Assembly (NCBI GenBank): GCA_947175535.1
Contig: CAMWNF010000005.1
Coordinates: 1 to 54,173, forward strand
Direction of reading: 5' to 3'
Source: an uncultured Bacteroidales bacterium
GTDB taxonomy: Bacteria > Bacteroidota > Bacteroidia > Bacteroidales > Muribaculaceae
DNA: 54,173 nt
This document shows positions 147 through 41,996 of the stretch, in pieces. A program made the position numbers and the translations under genes. How positions within the stretch are numbered: position 1 is the first letter of the stretch; every line of letters starts with the position of its first letter. The notes beneath the pieces are model-generated. The model was not told where the DNA came from, ran no database searches, and saw only the letters and a program-made list of their open reading frames with translations.

Positions 147-587
147 TTAGTGATTGATTATTTCAGAAATCTTGTAAAGCAAATCAAACGCAATAAGGTT
201 TTCATTACTATTCATTTCTTCTGGGTCAGCACCTTTGTCAAGTGTCAACCAGAAGAAGTCTTTCTCACAAGTTAAATCTTCAAGAGTTTCGTTGTAGTGA
301 GTGTGATACCTTACCGCTGATATCAGTAAATCGCACCCCCTGGTTTGCCCAAACTCCCTCGCAGCCAAAAGGTGCTGTTTCTCATCTCCGGCTGAGTAAA
401 TAGCTATTTTCACGCCATTGAGAGTCAGTATCGACTTGAAATCTCCCCATTCGAAGCGTTCATAATAATCTATAGTAGCATCCAAATAATCTATAGTAGC
501 ATCCAATCCTTTCAGTGCGGAAAACAGGCGACGACATACAGTCGACTTACCGGTATCTTGCTCACCATAAATCAAAAAGATTTTCAT
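147..587 (-). CDS. Small P-loop NTP-binding protein
   Basis: 146 aa ORF with N-terminal Walker A motif GEQDTGKST; contains an in-frame 21-bp tandem duplication. Confidence 0.6.
   Translation of the reverse strand: MKIFLIYGEQDTGKSTVCRRLFSALKGLDATIDYLDATIDYYERFEWGDFKSILTLNGVKIAIYSAGDEKQHLLAAREFGQTRGCDLLISAVRYHTHYNETLEDLTCEKDFFWLTLDKGADPEEMNSNENLIAFDLLYKISEIINH
464..506. repeat. 21-bp in-frame tandem duplication (2 copies)
   Basis: ATAATCTATAGTAGCATCCAA present twice back to back; gives DATIDYLDATIDY in the minus-strand P-loop protein. Confidence 0.9.
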
Positions 588-590
588 AAA

Positions 591-934
591 TTATACAGTT
601 GCCGCGGTCATCCTCTCGTTGGCGTTAGGTCGGTTCACGAAAAAAGCGTAGGAATCTGTATCTCTTGCCGTCCTACTGGTCGAGGCTTCTCGCATTGCCC
701 TATCAAAGTCGGACGGCAACGCAGAAGCCCACGCCAGTATATGCAATCAAAGCGTCCGGCTATATTTCTCACGAAACATCGTGCCGAATGCAAGATAATC
801 ACATATCCACGGGCATCTACCGTTGCTCAATCCCTGACTTTGATATGAAAGTTTGCGAGACATTTCGACCAGTCAAGAATCAGCGCGGATAAACGCTTTC
901 TATGTATTTATTCGGTCACTCAATCGAGCGACCG
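591..934 (-). repeat. Leader-like repeat element, copy 1
   Basis: Conserved blocks shared with 41454-41762: CGTTGGC.TTAG, AGCGT.(G)A.TCTGTATCT, CCGTCC.AC, GAGGCT, GGCATCTA, GATAAACGCTT, then a hairpin. Minus-strand reading contains ARDTDSYAFFVNRPNANE, matching RVEDTDSHALIFLSKANE of copy 2; copy 1 has an in-frame stop upstream. Confidence 0.6.
913..934 (-). other. Hairpin at the 5' end of repeat element copy 1
   Basis: Minus-strand RNA CGGUCGCUC-GAUU-GAGUGACCG: 9-bp stem with one G-U. The plus strand would have an A-C mismatch, so it is directional. Confidence 0.6.
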
Positions 935-1029
935 TGATACATCCCGCTCCGCTCAACCCCGGACGGCGGGGTTGGCTCAATTAAGAACCCTCACCCTACT
1001 GGCGTGGTCTGCATTGCGGTCTGCAACAA

Positions 1030-1037
1030 CAAAGTTA
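1030..1037 (-). promoter_or_regulatory. Candidate promoter reading into element copy 1 and the P-loop gene
   Basis: Minus-strand TAACTTTG matches the Bacteroidetes TAnnTTTG -7 motif; ATTG lies 20 bp upstream (plus 1058-1061), one mismatch from TTTG. Confidence 0.4.
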
Positions 1038-1109
1038 GTAAAAGTTTTTATTTCAGGCAATAGCCGCGATTTTTCTCCCGATAGCATCAAAAGTAATTAC
1101 GATTTTGAG

Positions 1110-2777: not shown

Positions 2778-5123
2778 CTATTGTCGTTTTAGCGTATTTA
2801 TCTGATTTTTTGGAGCGAATAATCTTTGGGTAGCTTCATGGCTCTCGTCAACATCGATGTCGAGTTTATGACGGATATCGCGGCTTGACGCGCCGATAAG
2901 AAGCTGATATTTACCTGGAGTCACAATCCATTCCGAACTGTTGTCGTCGAATGATGCAAGGTCTTTGCCGCGTACATTCAATGTCACAGTCTGCATTTCG
3001 CCGGGTTGGAGTTCGGTTGTCTTGGCGAATGCCTTGAGTTCTTTTTCCGGCTTGTTGTTGAACTTTGCGGCGGGAGCTGAAGCATAGAGCTGAACGATTT
3101 CCTTGCCGGCATGCTTACCGATGTTTCTGATATCCACAGTGACAATGTAGTTGCCGTTTTCAGCCTTGACAGTCGGGTTGCTGTATTCGAAATCAGTATA
3201 TGACAGACCATAACCGAACGGATAGCTGACCGCTTTGTCGAAGCTGTCGAAATAGCGGTAGCCGACATAGATGTCCTCCTCATAAGGAGTGTAGTGATAG
3301 GTGCGTACGGGTTCGGGAACGCTATCGTTGTTACCTCCGAGACGGATTTCCTCTTTGATGTCGAGAGGGAAGTTTGCCGAAGAAGCGTGGTCAGCAAAAG
3401 CAATAGGGAAGGTCATGGTCAGTTTTCCCGACGGGTAAGCCTTTCCAGATAGCACGTCAGCGACAGAGTTGCCTCCTTCCTGCCCGCCCTGCCAGGCGCA
3501 CAATATGGCGTCGGGCAGTTTCTTCCAGGAAGCGGTTTCGACTGCGCCGCCGATATTCATGATTACGATAACTCTCTTGCCTTTGGCGTGGAAAGCGCGA
3601 GTGACATCGTCAAGCAGACGTTTGTTGGCTTCGCTGAGATTGAAATCAGCAGTCGTGCGGTCATAGAACTCGCCAGAGTTGCGACCGATAGTGACAATGG
3701 CGACATCTGCTTCCTGAGCATGGCGGCTGAGTTCATCGGCACCGAAAACAATCTCTTCGGCCGGAGGAATGGGATAAAACGACTTGTTCTTTAGGTCTTT
3801 GGGCGTGTTGCGTTCGTTTTCCTCCTCGATGTGTTTGGCATATCTTGTCTCAAGATTGGGGTCTATCAACTCATAACCTGCGTTTTTGAGTCCGTCAAGT
3901 AGCGAAACGGTGTATGCGCGGTTAACGTTACCGCTGCCTGTGCCGCCGGGAATCCAGTTGTAAGACGTGCAACCGTAGAGAGCCACTTTTTTGGTATCGG
4001 CAGGGAGGGGGAGTGTCGCGCTGTCGTTCTTGAGGAGAACCATGCCGTCAGCTGCACTTGTCCGGGTCAGCTTGGCATGCTCCTCGAGGTCGGGATGGTT
4101 GCCGGGTACATGTCCGTTGAAGCGGGGAGTGCGGACGATAAGTTCGAGAATGCGGCGCACATTCCTGTCGACCACAGCTTCGTCAAGCGTTCCGACTTGA
4201 ACACCGGCTATTATAGCTTCATACTGTTTCGGCAGACCCGGCTGGAGCATATCGTTGCCGGCTTTCATCTGAGCGACAGCGTCGCTACCGCCGAACCAGT
4301 CGGACATGACCATGCCGTCATATCCCCATTCATCGCGGAGCAGGGTCTGGAGGAGTTCTTCGCTTTCGGAAGTGTATGTGCCGTCGACACGGTTATATGA
4401 ACTCATGACAGTCCATGGATTGCCTTCTTTTACAGCTGTTTCAAACCCTTTAAGATAGATTTCACGAAGCGCGCGCGGAGAAACCTGTGCGTCGTTACCC
4501 ATGCGGTTGGTCTCCTGATTGTTGACTGCGAAGTGCTTGATAGAAGTGCCGACACCGTTGCTCTGCACACCGCGAACGTAGGCAGCGGCAATCTTGCCCG
4601 CTACAACAGGGTCTTCTGAGTAATATTCGAAGTTTCTGCCGCAGAGAGGATTACGGTGGATGTTGAGTGCCGGAGCGAGAAGGACATCAGCGCCATATTC
4701 AAGAACTTCGTTACCGATAGCCTTACCGACTTCAGAAACAAGAGTTGTGTCCCATGTGCAAGCAAGAAGAGTGCCGATTGGGAAGTGAGTACAGTAATAT
4801 GTCGCCGAATCACCTTCACGGGTCGGGCTGATACGCAAACCCGCAGGTCCGTCGGCGAGTACGATGGCTGGAATGCCGAGACGTTCGATTGGGAAAGTTG
4901 TTCCTGCAGCACCGGGTACTATCTTACGGGTTTCACCGACAACCGCACTGTCGCCCTCGGTATATCCCGCCATGCCTGTTCCGACGATAAGATGGACTTT
5001 CTCCTCAAGGGTCATAGCCGCGATGACATCATCGATTGGGTCTTTTCCCAGCTGAGGAGTTCTGTTGCCGCATCCGGCAAATAAAAAGCAGCTGACAGCC
5101 ATACAGATAATATACTTTTTCAT
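2778..5123 (-). CDS. GH3 family beta-glycosidase lipoprotein
   Basis: Lipoprotein signal MKKYIICMAVSCFLFAGC; GH3 nucleophile context GYDGMVMSDWFGG; C-terminal Fn3-like domain. Confidence 0.9.
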   Translation of the reverse strand: MKKYIICMAVSCFLFAGCGNRTPQLGKDPIDDVIAAMTLEEKVHLIVGTGMAGYTEGDSAVVGETRKIVPGAAGTTFPIERLGIPAIVLADGPAGLRISPTREGDSATYYCTHFPIGTLLACTWDTTLVSEVGKAIGNEVLEYGADVLLAPALNIHRNPLCGRNFEYYSEDPVVAGKIAAAYVRGVQSNGVGTSIKHFAVNNQETNRMGNDAQVSPRALREIYLKGFETAVKEGNPWTVMSSYNRVDGTYTSESEELLQTLLRDEWGYDGMVMSDWFGGSDAVAQMKAGNDMLQPGLPKQYEAIIAGVQVGTLDEAVVDRNVRRILELIVRTPRFNGHVPGNHPDLEEHAKLTRTSAADGMVLLKNDSATLPLPADTKKVALYGCTSYNWIPGGTGSGNVNRAYTVSLLDGLKNAGYELIDPNLETRYAKHIEEENERNTPKDLKNKSFYPIPPAEEIVFGADELSRHAQEADVAIVTIGRNSGEFYDRTTADFNLSEANKRLLDDVTRAFHAKGKRVIVIMNIGGAVETASWKKLPDAILCAWQGGQEGGNSVADVLSGKAYPSGKLTMTFPIAFADHASSANFPLDIKEEIRLGGNNDSVPEPVRTYHYTPYEEDIYVGYRYFDSFDKAVSYPFGYGLSYTDFEYSNPTVKAENGNYIVTVDIRNIGKHAGKEIVQLYASAPAAKFNNKPEKELKAFAKTTELQPGEMQTVTLNVRGKDLASFDDNSSEWIVTPGKYQLLIGASSRDIRHKLDIDVDESHEATQRLFAPKNQINTLKRQ

Positions 5124-37600: not shown

Positions 37601-37609
37601 TTATAAACA

Positions 37610-38149
37610 ATGATTAAAGAAATACTTGAACATAATCGTCGCTTCGTAGAAGAGAAAGGCTACGAGCGTTTCCGCACTGATAAATATCCCAACAAGAAAA
37701 TTGCGATTGTGACCTGCATGGACACGCGTCTTGTCGAACTGCTCCCTGCCGCACTCGGCTTCCGCAATGGCGACGTGAAAGTCATCAAAAACGCCGGCGC
37801 AACGATTACCAATCCCTTTGACAGCACGATGCGTAGCCTGCTTGTCGCTGTCTATGAGCTTGGCGTAGAGGAAATAATGGTTATAGGTCATACGGGCTGC
37901 GGCGTCCAGGGCATGGACAGCGCAGAGATGCAACATCTTATGAAAGAACGCGGTATTCCCGAAAGCAATATCAACCTGATGAAGCACTGTGGCATCGACC
38001 TTGACAGCTGGCTTCACGGATTCGACGACACCGACGAAGCAATCCGCGAAACTGTCGACCTCATCCGAAACCATCCCCTTATGACCCACGACATCACCGT
38101 CAAAGGCTACATAATGGACTCCGAAACCGGTACCCTCCGCCCCCTTTGA
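37610..38149 (+). CDS. Beta-class carbonic anhydrase
   Basis: Zn/catalytic motifs CMDTR and GHTGCG; RNAGATI-like KNAGATI. Confidence 0.9.
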   Translation: MIKEILEHNRRFVEEKGYERFRTDKYPNKKIAIVTCMDTRLVELLPAALGFRNGDVKVIKNAGATITNPFDSTMRSLLVAVYELGVEEIMVIGHTGCGVQGMDSAEMQHLMKERGIPESNINLMKHCGIDLDSWLHGFDDTDEAIRETVDLIRNHPLMTHDITVKGYIMDSETGTLRPL

Positions 38150-38193
38150 AAGGATCAAAACCGTTTTCACTTGGCTGATAATGGCGAGTTGTT

Positions 38194-38208: not shown

Positions 38209-39381
38209 ATGTCTACAACAACGTTCAATCCTATAGCAGAGAGCGGCAGGGCAGCCCGTCGGGAGGGATGGGTCGACGCTCTCCGCATTGTCGCTTGTGC
38301 GATGGTCGTACTCAGCCATTGCTGCGACCATTTCACGGCTGCATTTGACTCGAATTACTCGTTTTTCCTCACAGGCACGGCTATCGGCAGCATTGTTCGC
38401 CCTTGTGTGCCGTTGTTCGTGATGATGTCAGGTGTGCTTCTGCTCCCAATCAATAATAATGTAAGCCTGAGCGGATTTTACAAGAAAAGAGTGTCGCGCG
38501 TTTTGATTGCGCTGATTTTCTGGTCTCTGCTGCTACCTGTAGCTTGCTACTTCTACTTTAATTCTGTCGGCGGAAGCTCGGTCAACCCAGCGGTCGACCT
38601 TACGGCTTACACTCGGTCAGGATTAGTCAATCGCCTGTGGAGCTGGATATTCAACTTTAACTATGATACAACTCCGCTGTGGTATCTTTATATGCTGCTC
38701 GGTCTATATTTAGCCATGCCGATTGTCAACGCATGGCTTGCCACTGCCAGCCGCAAAGATTTACGCGCAGTGCTGATTGTTTGGATTGCAACCCTTTTTA
38801 TTCCGATTATAAAAATCGTCGCTCCCCTTTGTGGCTATGCCGGTAATTACGGCAATCTCGATATATGGGGCGGCTGCGATTGGAATGTCTACGGCACGTT
38901 TTACTATATGTCGGGGTTTATGGGTTATATTCTACTCGCATATTACATGGTAAAATACCCGCTGTCGTGGAGCAACCGCAAACTGGCGGTCATCGGTAGC
39001 CTTATGTTTGCCGCAGGATTTGTATTGACTTTCGGCGGCTATGTATTGCTGCAGAAATATTTCCCCGGTAATTATTCATATCTGGAAATAGCGTGGTGGT
39101 TTACAGGTATCAACGTATTCATTATGACATGGCCGATATTCGAGTGGTTCAGACGTTCGTCAATCAGACCTCGAAAAGTGTTGACATATCTTGCCGGTCT
39201 GACGTTCGGCATATACCTTTGTCACTTTTTCTTTGTGATGGTGGGATATGACCTCTTTAACATTGCGTCGCTCCCCGCAGTTGTGAGGATTGCATTAAAC
39301 CTGATTTTCACTTTCAGTTGCGCCGCCATCCTCGCCGCTCTCCTAAAAAGCTGGAAAGTCACCCGGAAATTTGTGTCATAG
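38209..39381 (+). CDS. Acyltransferase family 3 integral membrane protein
   Basis: N-terminal REGWVDALRIVACAMVVLSHCCDHF, VRPCVPLFVMMSGVLLL, multiple TM helices, TPLWYLYMLLGLYLAMP. Confidence 0.87.
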   Translation: MSTTTFNPIAESGRAARREGWVDALRIVACAMVVLSHCCDHFTAAFDSNYSFFLTGTAIGSIVRPCVPLFVMMSGVLLLPINNNVSLSGFYKKRVSRVLIALIFWSLLLPVACYFYFNSVGGSSVNPAVDLTAYTRSGLVNRLWSWIFNFNYDTTPLWYLYMLLGLYLAMPIVNAWLATASRKDLRAVLIVWIATLFIPIIKIVAPLCGYAGNYGNLDIWGGCDWNVYGTFYYMSGFMGYILLAYYMVKYPLSWSNRKLAVIGSLMFAAGFVLTFGGYVLLQKYFPGNYSYLEIAWWFTGINVFIMTWPIFEWFRRSSIRPRKVLTYLAGLTFGIYLCHFFFVMVGYDLFNIASLPAVVRIALNLIFTFSCAAILAALLKSWKVTRKFVS

Positions 39382-39474
39382 CTCGAATAGGCTGATGACC
39401 GAAGTTGTTTTTTCTCGAAACTACGCGATTTTAACAATATTGCACGACGGCGTAGAGTCGCGTTATCAACGGCT

Positions 39475-39508
39475 CACCATCAACGGCTACATAATAGACT
39501 CCGAAACC
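39475..39508 (+). repeat. Partial duplicate of the carbonic anhydrase 3' end
   Basis: CACCATCAACGGCTACATAATAGACTCCGAAACC vs 38095-38128 CACCGTCAAAGGCTACATAATGGACTCCGAAACC: 31/34 identical by hand. Confidence 0.7.
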
Positions 39509-39855: not shown

Positions 39856-40953
39856 TTATTGGATTCTATTAATTTCAGCTTGTATTTCAGATTCTGAAAA
39901 GAATGGTCTACATAGAAATGTTGTAAAACTATTTAAATTTGAGCTAAATACAGGAATTTTACTTCCCTTTTGTTTAATAGTGTCCCCTATGATACGTCTT
40001 CTATAATATAAATTACTTCCACTATAAACTTGAATTTCCCAGTTACCCAGTTCCTTTGACCGATTATAATTTGAACCTCTAACTGGGGATGCTCCCGGCA
40101 CAACGAAATATAGACCAGGAATGTCAAAATTTTTGAGTCTATTATTTGATATTGCTCGCAATATTGTTTCATCGGCCATCTCCCAACCGTATGGAATTGG
40201 ATTGGCTATAACTACTTTACCTTTAGCTGCGTCAAACTCAAATCGAAAATCATATACATCGTTTCTTATAATGTATCCAGCTACTTGAAACGTCGAAACA
40301 CCTAATTTATTCAATAGATTCTGGATTGCTTGGTTGCGTAACTGACTGCGTTTGAATTGCTCTCTTCTTTCAGCTTCCTCTCTAGCTGCCAGTTCTTCCC
40401 TTCTGGTCCGCTCGATTTGTTCTCTCTTTTCGCGCTCAATTCGTTCCTCTTCAGACTTTATCCTTGCCCTTTCTTCTTCTTTTGGTTTAATTATAAGACC
40501 TTCCGCAACTTTCTGCGAGAGTGAAACTAAATGATTCATATTCTGGACTGGAGATGAAGTATCAAAAGAATAAACTATTACTGCACTCTGAACGTCAATA
40601 AGGCGAGAAGACACGAATATTTCGTCGAGCAATTCGTTTGCATCTACCACCGCAACATATCTCACGCCAAATTGCTGTCCGATTTTGGCGATTTGACTGT
40701 CAGATACATTTCCAGAAACTTGGTAATCTTGTTCCGAGGAAATGGCATTGAGAAAATCATTAGTTCTTTCAATGGCAATGTAGTCTGGTGATGCAGCTAT
40801 CTCCGAAACCATTTTAGAGCCAATGACTTTTTTATATGCCTCATCGATATCGCCAATCATGTAAACAGCGAGTTTTTGTTTGAAATTATTATTTTGTCCA
40901 TCTACCGTCGTAAACGAAACAGCTAATAATAGCATGATGAATATTGTACGCAT
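39856..40953 (-). CDS. Secreted CsgG/TolB-like protein with charged coiled-coil linker and extra C-terminal domain; unknown function
   Basis: Signal peptide; N-terminal domain paralogous to 40965-41444; EEERARIKSEEERIEREKREQIERTRREELAAREEAERREQ coiled coil. Confidence 0.65.
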   Translation of the reverse strand: MRTIFIMLLLAVSFTTVDGQNNNFKQKLAVYMIGDIDEAYKKVIGSKMVSEIAASPDYIAIERTNDFLNAISSEQDYQVSGNVSDSQIAKIGQQFGVRYVAVVDANELLDEIFVSSRLIDVQSAVIVYSFDTSSPVQNMNHLVSLSQKVAEGLIIKPKEEERARIKSEEERIEREKREQIERTRREELAAREEAERREQFKRSQLRNQAIQNLLNKLGVSTFQVAGYIIRNDVYDFRFEFDAAKGKVVIANPIPYGWEMADETILRAISNNRLKNFDIPGLYFVVPGASPVRGSNYNRSKELGNWEIQVYSGSNLYYRRRIIGDTIKQKGSKIPVFSSNLNSFTTFLCRPFFSESEIQAEINRIQ

Positions 40954-40964
40954 ATACCAAAGAT

Positions 40965-41444
40965 TTATTTAGACTTATTATTAAGAAGACGATATGCGAG
41001 ATTATTTGCCATGGTGGATATAATCTCCGATCCAGTGTATTCCCGTTTGAGATTCACTGTTTTGAGAATCTCCCCGGATACCAAGTCGATCAACTTAGCA
41101 AACATATGGCATTGGTCGTCTGCGGATATTACGGTGTGGACTACAATGACATAATCAACACCTAAACGTTGTCCCACGGAACGAATTTCTTTTTCGGGAA
41201 GGTCTCCAGATGTCTGATAGTCTTGTTCTTTATCAAGAGCGTTGACAAATGACGAGTTTCTTTCAAATGCCTTGTAATCTTTATTCCCAGAAAGTCGTGC
41301 AAGGACCGATGAACAAACAATTGATTTGGTAGATTTGGAGATTTCGCCTTCTGCGTACACGGCAACCTTTTTAGCCGCCATAGCTTCACTTGCGAACATG
41401 GTACTAGTAACCATAATGAAAAGAAGTAAATATAACCTTTTCAT
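40965..41444 (-). CDS. Secreted CsgG/TolB-like protein, paralogue of the downstream gene
   Basis: Signal peptide; KVAVYAEGEISKSTKSIV..DYKAFERNSSFVNALDKEQDYQTSGDLPEKEIRSVGQRLGVDYVIVV..AKLIDLVSGEI parallels the 39856-40953 N-terminus. Confidence 0.65.
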   Translation of the reverse strand: MKRLYLLLFIMVTSTMFASEAMAAKKVAVYAEGEISKSTKSIVCSSVLARLSGNKDYKAFERNSSFVNALDKEQDYQTSGDLPEKEIRSVGQRLGVDYVIVVHTVISADDQCHMFAKLIDLVSGEILKTVNLKREYTGSEIISTMANNLAYRLLNNKSK

Positions 41445-41603
41445 AAATACATTTTATGCCTCTGGACTCTCCTCGTTGGCTTTAGATAAAAAAATAAGAG
41501 CGTGAGAGTCTGTATCTTCTACCCGTCCCACAAACTGAGGCTCTGGAATGCCTTTCAAGATGAAACGAGCAGTTAGAGCCTCACGCAGATATGTGAATAT
41601 AAT

Positions 41604-41623
41604 ATATCTCCTCGCGGAGATAT
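41604..41623 (-). other. Hairpin with GNRA-type tetraloop inside element copy 2
   Basis: Minus-strand RNA AUAUCUCC-GCGA-GGAGAUAU, 8-bp perfect stem. Confidence 0.6.
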
Positions 41624-41744
41624 GGGATATATCACAATCGAAAGGCATCTATCACTGCAACATTTGACCTTGATAAGAAATTTTCCAGATTTCAGTTTGT
41701 CAAATGAGCGTCGATAAACGCTTCATAATAATTAGTATGTCTTT

Positions 41745-41762
41745 GTCAATCGTTTAATTGAC
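41745..41762 (-). other. Hairpin at the 5' end of repeat element copy 2
   Basis: GTCAAT-N6-ATTGAC, at the position equivalent to hairpin 913-934 but with different stem sequence. Confidence 0.5.
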
Positions 41763-41996
41763 GGTGCTAATTTACGAAATATTATTAAATTAAACAATAA
41801 AACTGCGATTATTTAGATTTATTGCTATACACAGAACCCCAGATAGATTTGCATAAACCTCTGTGTGTTCATTCCACCTTTATCTACAATAATACATAGC
41901 AATGGCGTCAGAGCGTAAGGTTCAGACGTACATTCCTTTTTTCTGTTTCTGCGTGGTTTTATTCATCCGGAGACGGACGCAAAAATTGCCTTACTA

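Follow-up and report, generated by a model that had tools for sequence, protein, structure and literature searches.

The window analysed here, a stretch of 54,173 nucleotides from an uncultured member of the Muribaculaceae (Bacteroidales), contains two copies of a structured element, each located on the minus strand directly upstream of coding genes. Copy 1 precedes a single gene for a P-loop-like protein, and copy 2 is followed by two related genes. A truncated RhuM-family ORF (E = 5.5e-6) is orientated divergently beside the promoter of copy 1 (1121-1504, +). The initial annotation had noticed blocks common to 591-1037 and to the second copy; both copies were found to align over their whole length. 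The features of the two copies are as follows.

1030-1063 (-): promoter of copy 1, with a -33 TTG and the -7 sequence TAACTTTG, Bacteroidetes sigma-ABfr type; full sequence CTATTGCCTGAAATAAAAACTTTTACTAACTTTG at 1063-1030
601-1024 (-): structured leader of copy 1, from the predicted transcription start, placed according to the promoter, to the start-proximal hairpin
901-1024 (-): 5' domain of copy 1, beginning with GCAGACCGC; less conserved; contains a 9-bp hairpin at 913-934 (CGGUCGCUC-GAUU-GAGUGACCG)
882-897 (-): P1 hairpin, AGCG-UUUAUCCG-CGCU; 96.8% of cells paired
831-879 (-): P2 region, 872-879 pairing with 831-838 and enclosing X, P3, K, and Y
865-871 (-): X; 847-866: P3 hairpin; 854-860: K, in the P3 loop; 836-845: Y; all with covariation
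809-823 (-): P4, ACGG-UAGAUGC-CCGU; loop highly conserved, 93.9% paired with little variation
739-806 (-): P6, a variable stem; P6c at 762-779 (AUGUUUC-GUGA-GAAAUAU) under a GUGA (GNRA-like) loop
646-734 (-): second domain; P5, 728-734 with 646-652; P7, 723-729 with 684-690; P8, 711-720 with 665-673
701-710, 688-694, and 677-683 (-): the complementary strands Y', K', and X' in the second domain
640-646 (-): terminator-like U-run directly after P5; at least five U in six positions in 123/141 copies
601-623 (-): start-proximal hairpin, GCC-AACGAGAGGAUGACCGC-GGC, 13 nt before the ATG (587)
147-587 (-): cargo gene of copy 1, encoding a P-loop-like protein of 146 aa; Pfam matches weak and below the cut-off
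41767-41797 (-): promoter of copy 2, TTG ... TAAATTAG, with an imperfect -7 box
41458-41762 (-): structured leader of copy 2, with the parts in the same order as in copy 1
41707-41722 (-): P1 of copy 2; K, 41683-41689, with K', 41542-41548 (UCUGGAA/UUCCAGA); P5, 41580-41586 with 41500-41506
41488-41499 (-): U-rich tract of copy 2; start-proximal hairpin at 41458-41480
40965-41444 (-): first cargo gene of copy 2, encoding an exported-looking protein of 159 aa without Pfam match
39856-40953 (-): second gene behind copy 2, a relative of the first (32% identity over 129 aa)

The element had been described as ending just before the gene, which agrees with the position of the last conserved hairpin relative to the start codon. 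Its extent, initially given as about 330 bp, has to be enlarged to a conserved unit of some 420 nt that begins at the predicted transcription start (~1024) and ends at 601. The 9-bp hairpin contains one G-U pair and hence pairs better on the minus strand, as had been pointed out; it is a variable hairpin of the 5' domain and is not universal among the copies. An internal hairpin previously proposed at 770-783 (CACGA/UCGUG) can pair in copy 1, but the comparative data back P6c over the same bases, with compensatory changes in all seven pairs.

The proposed structure was examined in 70 aligned copies, in which 94.9% of its cells were standard pairs. Cells changed on both sides amounted to 332, compared to a mean of 104 after shuffling, and pairing fell to 36-49% when the partner strand was slid by one to three columns. 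In a second structure tested, which included Y, 98.0% of the cells were paired. The minus strand of copy 1 folds with a z-score of -6.05 (plus strand, -4.28), which, together with the strong covariation, places the structure suggested for the element beyond chance. Two wobble pairs are conserved (U-G in 65/70 and G-U in 57/70 copies), which fits an RNA of the minus strand. P6c is capped by GNRA-type loops, and P5 (5-7 bp) closes the second domain by pairing of GCGUGGG with CCUACGC or of GCGUGAG with CUCACGC. Many conserved bases of the leader are unpaired. The existence of a conserved RNA structure is nearly certain, and sequence comparison establishes the helices P2, P3, P5, P6, P8, X, K, and Y as well as the location, the promoter, and the U-run.

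X, K, and Y form a long-range duplex between the 5' and 3' halves of the leader. Both X (97% paired, compensatory change in 5/5 pairs) and Y (94% paired, 7/7 pairs) are hypervariable, and K occurs as UCUCGCA/UGCGAGA, CUUCGCA/UGCGAAG, UCUGGUA/UACCAGA, or CUACCAC/GUGGUAG in different copies. In an alignment-free test, the X-K-Y strands of the same copy reached a median of -34 kcal/mol, compared to -17 kcal/mol with strands of other copies, and 89% of the copies preferred their own partner over all 25 foreign ones tried. Because X, K, and Y, which are mutually nested, cross P2 and P8, the fold is either pseudoknotted or alternates between two states. The duplex might also serve as a copy-specific address, the hypervariable complementary loops mediating self-recognition within or between molecules, so that the many co-expressed leaders of one cell do not interfere with each other in folding, assembly, or action and the module is an exchangeable expression cassette for the accessory surface-protein repertoire in gut Bacteroidales; we give this idea a small chance.

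A peptide frame shared by the two copies (ARDTDSYAFF...) had also been reported, and the same peptide is indeed readable in both. A conserved leader peptide as the reason for the conservation is nevertheless barely credible: the spacing of the conserved blocks is even over the three frames (17/16/14, n = 47), the alignment shows the frames interrupted at the U-run, and the conserved bases are positions of P8, P5, and the U-run. The peptide was rejected as a by-product, since its reading frame is not kept across copies.

The minus-strand promoter claimed for copy 1 was recovered at 1063-1030 and is general among the copies. A -7 box (TAnnTTYG) was present at the matching place in 156/166 copies, compared to 12.7% of shuffled sequences, and the full -33 TTG/-7 pair with the right spacing in 67%, compared to 1.3% of shuffles. 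The sequence around the boxes is not common to the copies, which indicates that the promoter is kept by selection and was not copied with the repeat. Placement was analysed for 176 copies with an intact 3' part, counting ORFs of at least 60 aa that start no more than 60 nt from the core end. Such an ORF followed 136 of the 176 copies at a median distance of 14 nt, in line with the consistent location 5' of genes that had been anticipated. Judged by the promoter position and the covariation, leader and downstream gene would be transcribed together.

The 3' domain was modelled from 58 copies, copy 1 among them, and the resulting covariance model (R1) recovered 14 copies in the genome of the window. 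In this whole-genome search, the second copy (41494-41603, minus strand) scored 75 bits (E = 1.4e-17). BLAST with copy 1 gave 11 matches in the same genome at a loose cut-off and matches in 28 of 61 genomes, namely 27 of 37 from the same genus (the own genome included) and 1 of 24 from other families of the order. Among 147 sampled Bacteroidales genomes, 27 contained further copies according to the covariance model. In a class-wide sample (194 genomes), one genome outside the order scored with R1, weakly, and in a phylum-wide sample (247 genomes), none scored besides the own genome. An exact 19-base pattern retrieved at least 115 loci in other genomes of another collection, nearly all titled Bacteroidales and nearly all scoring as real elements. 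Judged by record title, the leader is found in Muribaculaceae, Bacteroidaceae, Prevotellaceae, Barnesiella, Paraprevotella, Parabacteroides, and Paludibacteraceae. Cultured carriers are Duncaniella muris, Paraprevotella clara, P. xylaniphila, Heminiphilus faecis, Phocaeicola oris, Hallella mizrahii, and Xylanibacter rodentium.

Leaders were also detected on records titled Clostridium, Clostridia, Pseudoflavonifractor, and Clostridiales (L185, L187, L085, L164, L150); at least the title of L185 is wrong, because this record matches L046, from a genome of the same genus as the window, with full identity along its length. One copy lies on a viral-classed IMG/VR contig, which may be bacterial, before an elongation factor Tu-like frame (L190:393-700, +). 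On L220, two leaders with identical model scores are located 1.1 kb apart (1322-1416 and 2447-2541, +), each before a paralogous exported ORF. Contigs often start or end inside the leader core (e.g., L002, L005, L028, L044, L054), as would result from assembly breaks at near-identical copies or at alternative cargo. The 20 divergent weak matches (L220-L239) were each inspected; a promoter-like start, P1, X, Y, and P5 with the U-run recur, and the ORFs behind them are mostly exported-looking.

A dispersed repeat with 14 copies per genome and palindromic self-matches could also be a small non-autonomous mobile element (a MITE, an IS end, or an intron-like ribozyme) that inserts upstream of genes by chance. 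However, the element begins at the transcription start and ends in the start-codon region, nothing outside the promoter boxes is common to the copies, Rfam gave no intron, IS-associated, or HEARO-type match, and no transposase family is found among the 25 commonest cargo families. Such an origin is very improbable. Membership in an IS or MITE family was rejected, as the boundaries follow the transcription start and the start codon and the flanks have only the promoter boxes in common. An integron attC cassette was discarded, too: the element lies 5' of the gene together with a promoter, and no conserved element follows the cargo.

The cargo is diverse. The 120 first ORFs tested fell into 77 clusters, 59 of them with a single member. 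A crude sequence rule assigned a hydrophobic N-terminus to 84 of the 120 (about 70% exported-looking) and a lipobox to 18 of these. The commonest domain was the BspA-type leucine-rich repeat (18/120). PADLOC assigned four families with one protein each among the 120, and anti-phage defence was rejected as a cargo theme. A downstream stretch common to several cargo genes turned out to be coding, namely the N-terminus of BspA-type genes, and was dismissed as a 3' end of the element. The P-loop cargo recurs behind the leader at L001, L127, and L172, and had no relative in 24 sampled genomes of the same genus. The cargo gene of copy 2 recurs behind the leader at L006, L011, L078, L099, and L138, and an exported protein of 225 aa at L247, L251, and L259. 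Orthologues of the latter keep the leader in three genomes in which the model detects it (L272, L273, L275) and in a fourth in which it was seen by eye. At this fourth locus (L274:1040-1500, +), the model gave no match, and the order of X, K, Y, and P5 with the U-run is kept before the orthologous gene with nearly all of the sequence changed. The R1 copy counts are lower bounds, because the model misses this leader. Orthologues beyond the closest four were mostly without a recognisable leader. We count the retention of the leader by orthologous genes in favour of regulation in cis; the lack of a common pathway among the cargo genes, which is unusual for a metabolite riboswitch, counts against it.

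Comparison of loci revealed mosaics of flank, leader, and cargo. L075 and L147 match at 96% identity over 4.9 kb that extend through the 5' domain; beyond this point, they differ in X, Y, P6, and cargo. Three further pairs (L107/L140, L084/L180, L059/L184) have the upstream flank and the leader in common but not the cargo, and three others (L006/L078, L018/L021, L125/L160) the leader and the cargo but not the flank. X alleles were shared by 89 pairs of copies, compared to 18 in column shuffles, and Y alleles by 82, compared to 8, counts that are inflated by shared descent; the linkage of X and Y was weak (8 pairs vs. 2.3 expected). X alleles recur across species and even twice in one genome (L019, L046). 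The mosaics, the sharing of alleles, and the weak X-Y linkage fit recombination between copies. The loci are mostly metagenome assemblies, in which misjoins at repeats are possible at single loci. At the nadB locus, the window carries the leader with both of its cargo genes and a gene for an acyltransferase-like protein, none of which is present in a genome with a 95% identical NadB (G001), where nadB lies directly beside the following gene; most loci were too rearranged for this comparison, and G001 alone provided a clean empty site. The 3' end of the next gene (carbonic-anhydrase-like, 37601-38170) recurs in part at 39460-39500, next to the acyltransferase-like gene (38209-39381) and beside the inserted segment; this partial duplication is possibly a trace of the segment's arrival.

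These data would also be explained if the DNA itself acts as shared homology or as a site for the exchange of cargo, the module being an expression cassette for accessory surface proteins and the structure secondary. The near identity of L075 and L147 through the 5' domain, both types of mosaic pairs, the nearly independent sharing of X and Y alleles far above that in column shuffles, and the nadB locus of G001 all speak for such a platform. We see a slim chance for it, as there are no terminal repeats, no target duplication, and no conserved 3' end after the cargo. In addition, the promoter boxes are kept and the surrounding sequence is not, which points to selection for transcription; the conserved G-U wobbles are a sign of RNA; and many loci stem from metagenome assemblies, in which repeats can lead to misjoins.

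At the 3' end, a further helix (T) is formed in the divergent groups by the bases just before P5 and the loop of the hairpin adjacent to the start codon, e.g., CAGACUCCCG with CGGGAGUCUG. A helix T score of at least 7 was reached by 50/105 divergent copies, compared to a mean of 16 and a maximum of 24 with permuted partners, which shows helix T in these groups by comparison. The same permuted-partner test gave no signal in family A, the family of copy 1. As helix T spans the U-run, it supports one continuous leader; being completed 3' of the U-run, it cannot itself decide termination there. At L226, a DUF805 RNA (Rfam RF03081, 79 bits; 2971-3039, -) is located between the U-run of the leader and a lipoprotein gene, so that two cis-regulatory RNAs appear to be arranged in series.

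The position of the U-run right after the closing stem, the large size, and the many conserved unpaired bases would also suit an ornate structural or trans-acting RNA that starts at the promoter of the gene and ends at the U-run, the gene being expressed only by read-through. X-K-Y would then be a self-recognition code of each copy, e.g., for homo-oligomers as in ROOL and GOLLD; within a copy, X and Y pair strictly with their counterparts despite their hypervariability, and homo-oligomeric large RNAs are known (PMC12286853). However, the tight conserved spacing to the start codon, the conserved hairpin after the U-run, and helix T across it in the divergent groups speak for a unit that extends into the mRNA. 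X-K-Y pairing is possible within a single molecule, and the recurrence of X alleles across species and within one genome argues against a unique code. An RNA of this kind is unlikely.

The reading that we favour as the probable one is that the element is a 5' untranslated leader, a large, conserved, pseudoknotted RNA that controls the downstream gene in cis. Its location, its own promoter, the covarying fold, and the U-run make a cis-regulatory leader the best explanation, and a new family of riboswitch- or attenuator-like regulatory leaders is the best reading of the sequence data. The position 5' of the gene in the transcribed orientation and the covarying structure are those of a cis-regulatory RNA. 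Candidate features of an expression platform are the U-run after P5 (123/141 copies), helix T, restricted to the divergent groups, and competing pairings. The length of about 420 nt, which exceeds that of most riboswitches, counts against regulation in cis.

In the proposed mechanism, the leader would be transcribed from its own promoter and fold into two domains joined by the long X-K-Y duplex, P5 closing the second domain directly before the U-run. P5 and the U-run may together constitute an intrinsic terminator or a pause site. A conserved strand (GGGCUUCUGCGUUGC) has several possible partners, namely P7, P8, a local alternative (alt8), and GCAGAAGCC in the 5' domain, which suggests a conditional switch; the pairings of this hub would be mutually exclusive. 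Comparison of own and foreign partners supported only P8 and, weakly, P2, and gave no signal for P9, an alternative helix proximal to P4. The pairing of the 5' domain with the hub covaries in few cases (L006, L026, L059). Helix T could couple the fold to the translation start. We infer each of these specific switching steps. The leader would have spread onto many accessory genes, mostly for exported proteins, by descent and by recombination between copies.

The initial statement that the element belongs to no known family was corroborated. In a search of Rfam 15 with family A and divergent members, no family was matched by the element at its gathering score, the only hits being a tRNA and the adjacent DUF805 RNA; one sub-threshold match was on the other strand. 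Phage and plasmid records gave no match by DNA similarity, and an origin from a phage or plasmid was rejected on this basis. The part of the literature that was accessible to the search contained no description of the leader. In the HMP2 survey (PMC8040213), unnamed motifs number in the thousands and reach 219 bp; a fragment of the leader could be among them. OLE, ROOL, and GOLLD (PMC12286853) resemble the leader in their length of hundreds of nucleotides, elaborate fold, conserved loops, and long-range pairing; in contrast to them, it is an mRNA leader with a promoter, a fixed distance to the start codon, and many copies per genome. No match that would point to these families was obtained in the search of Rfam 15 as a whole. 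The Soda Lake RNA/smtA motif (PMC11109978), compared by its description, is likewise longer than 350 nt, located upstream of a gene, and of complex covarying structure, but it is restricted to Thioalkalivibrio and to one gene there. The DUF805 RNA and orphan riboswitch candidates of the Bacteroidota are, like the leader, conserved structured RNAs of the same phylum that immediately precede genes. Compared to the DUF805 RNA, the leader is about six times longer, differs in structure, is pseudoknotted, and is found on dozens of unrelated gene families. With transcription attenuators and terminator riboswitches it shares a stable stem and a U-run between promoter and gene as well as a strand with several partners; it differs in that the stem resembling a terminator encloses a domain of about 100 nt with a pseudoknot and in that the cargo genes have no pathway in common.

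Large complex RNAs outside the known classes are rare. The leader described here is abundant in common gut bacteria, with up to 14 recognisable copies per genome, and its hypervariable yet self-complementary segments raise a question of RNA folding and specificity that experiments can address directly. It looks like a control device that gut Bacteroidales reuse for accessory surface genes. If it is regulatory, one shared control circuit would cover dozens of accessory proteins, most of them exported (BspA-type repeat proteins, lipoproteins, and proteins of unknown function), which belong to the host-facing part of these bacteria.
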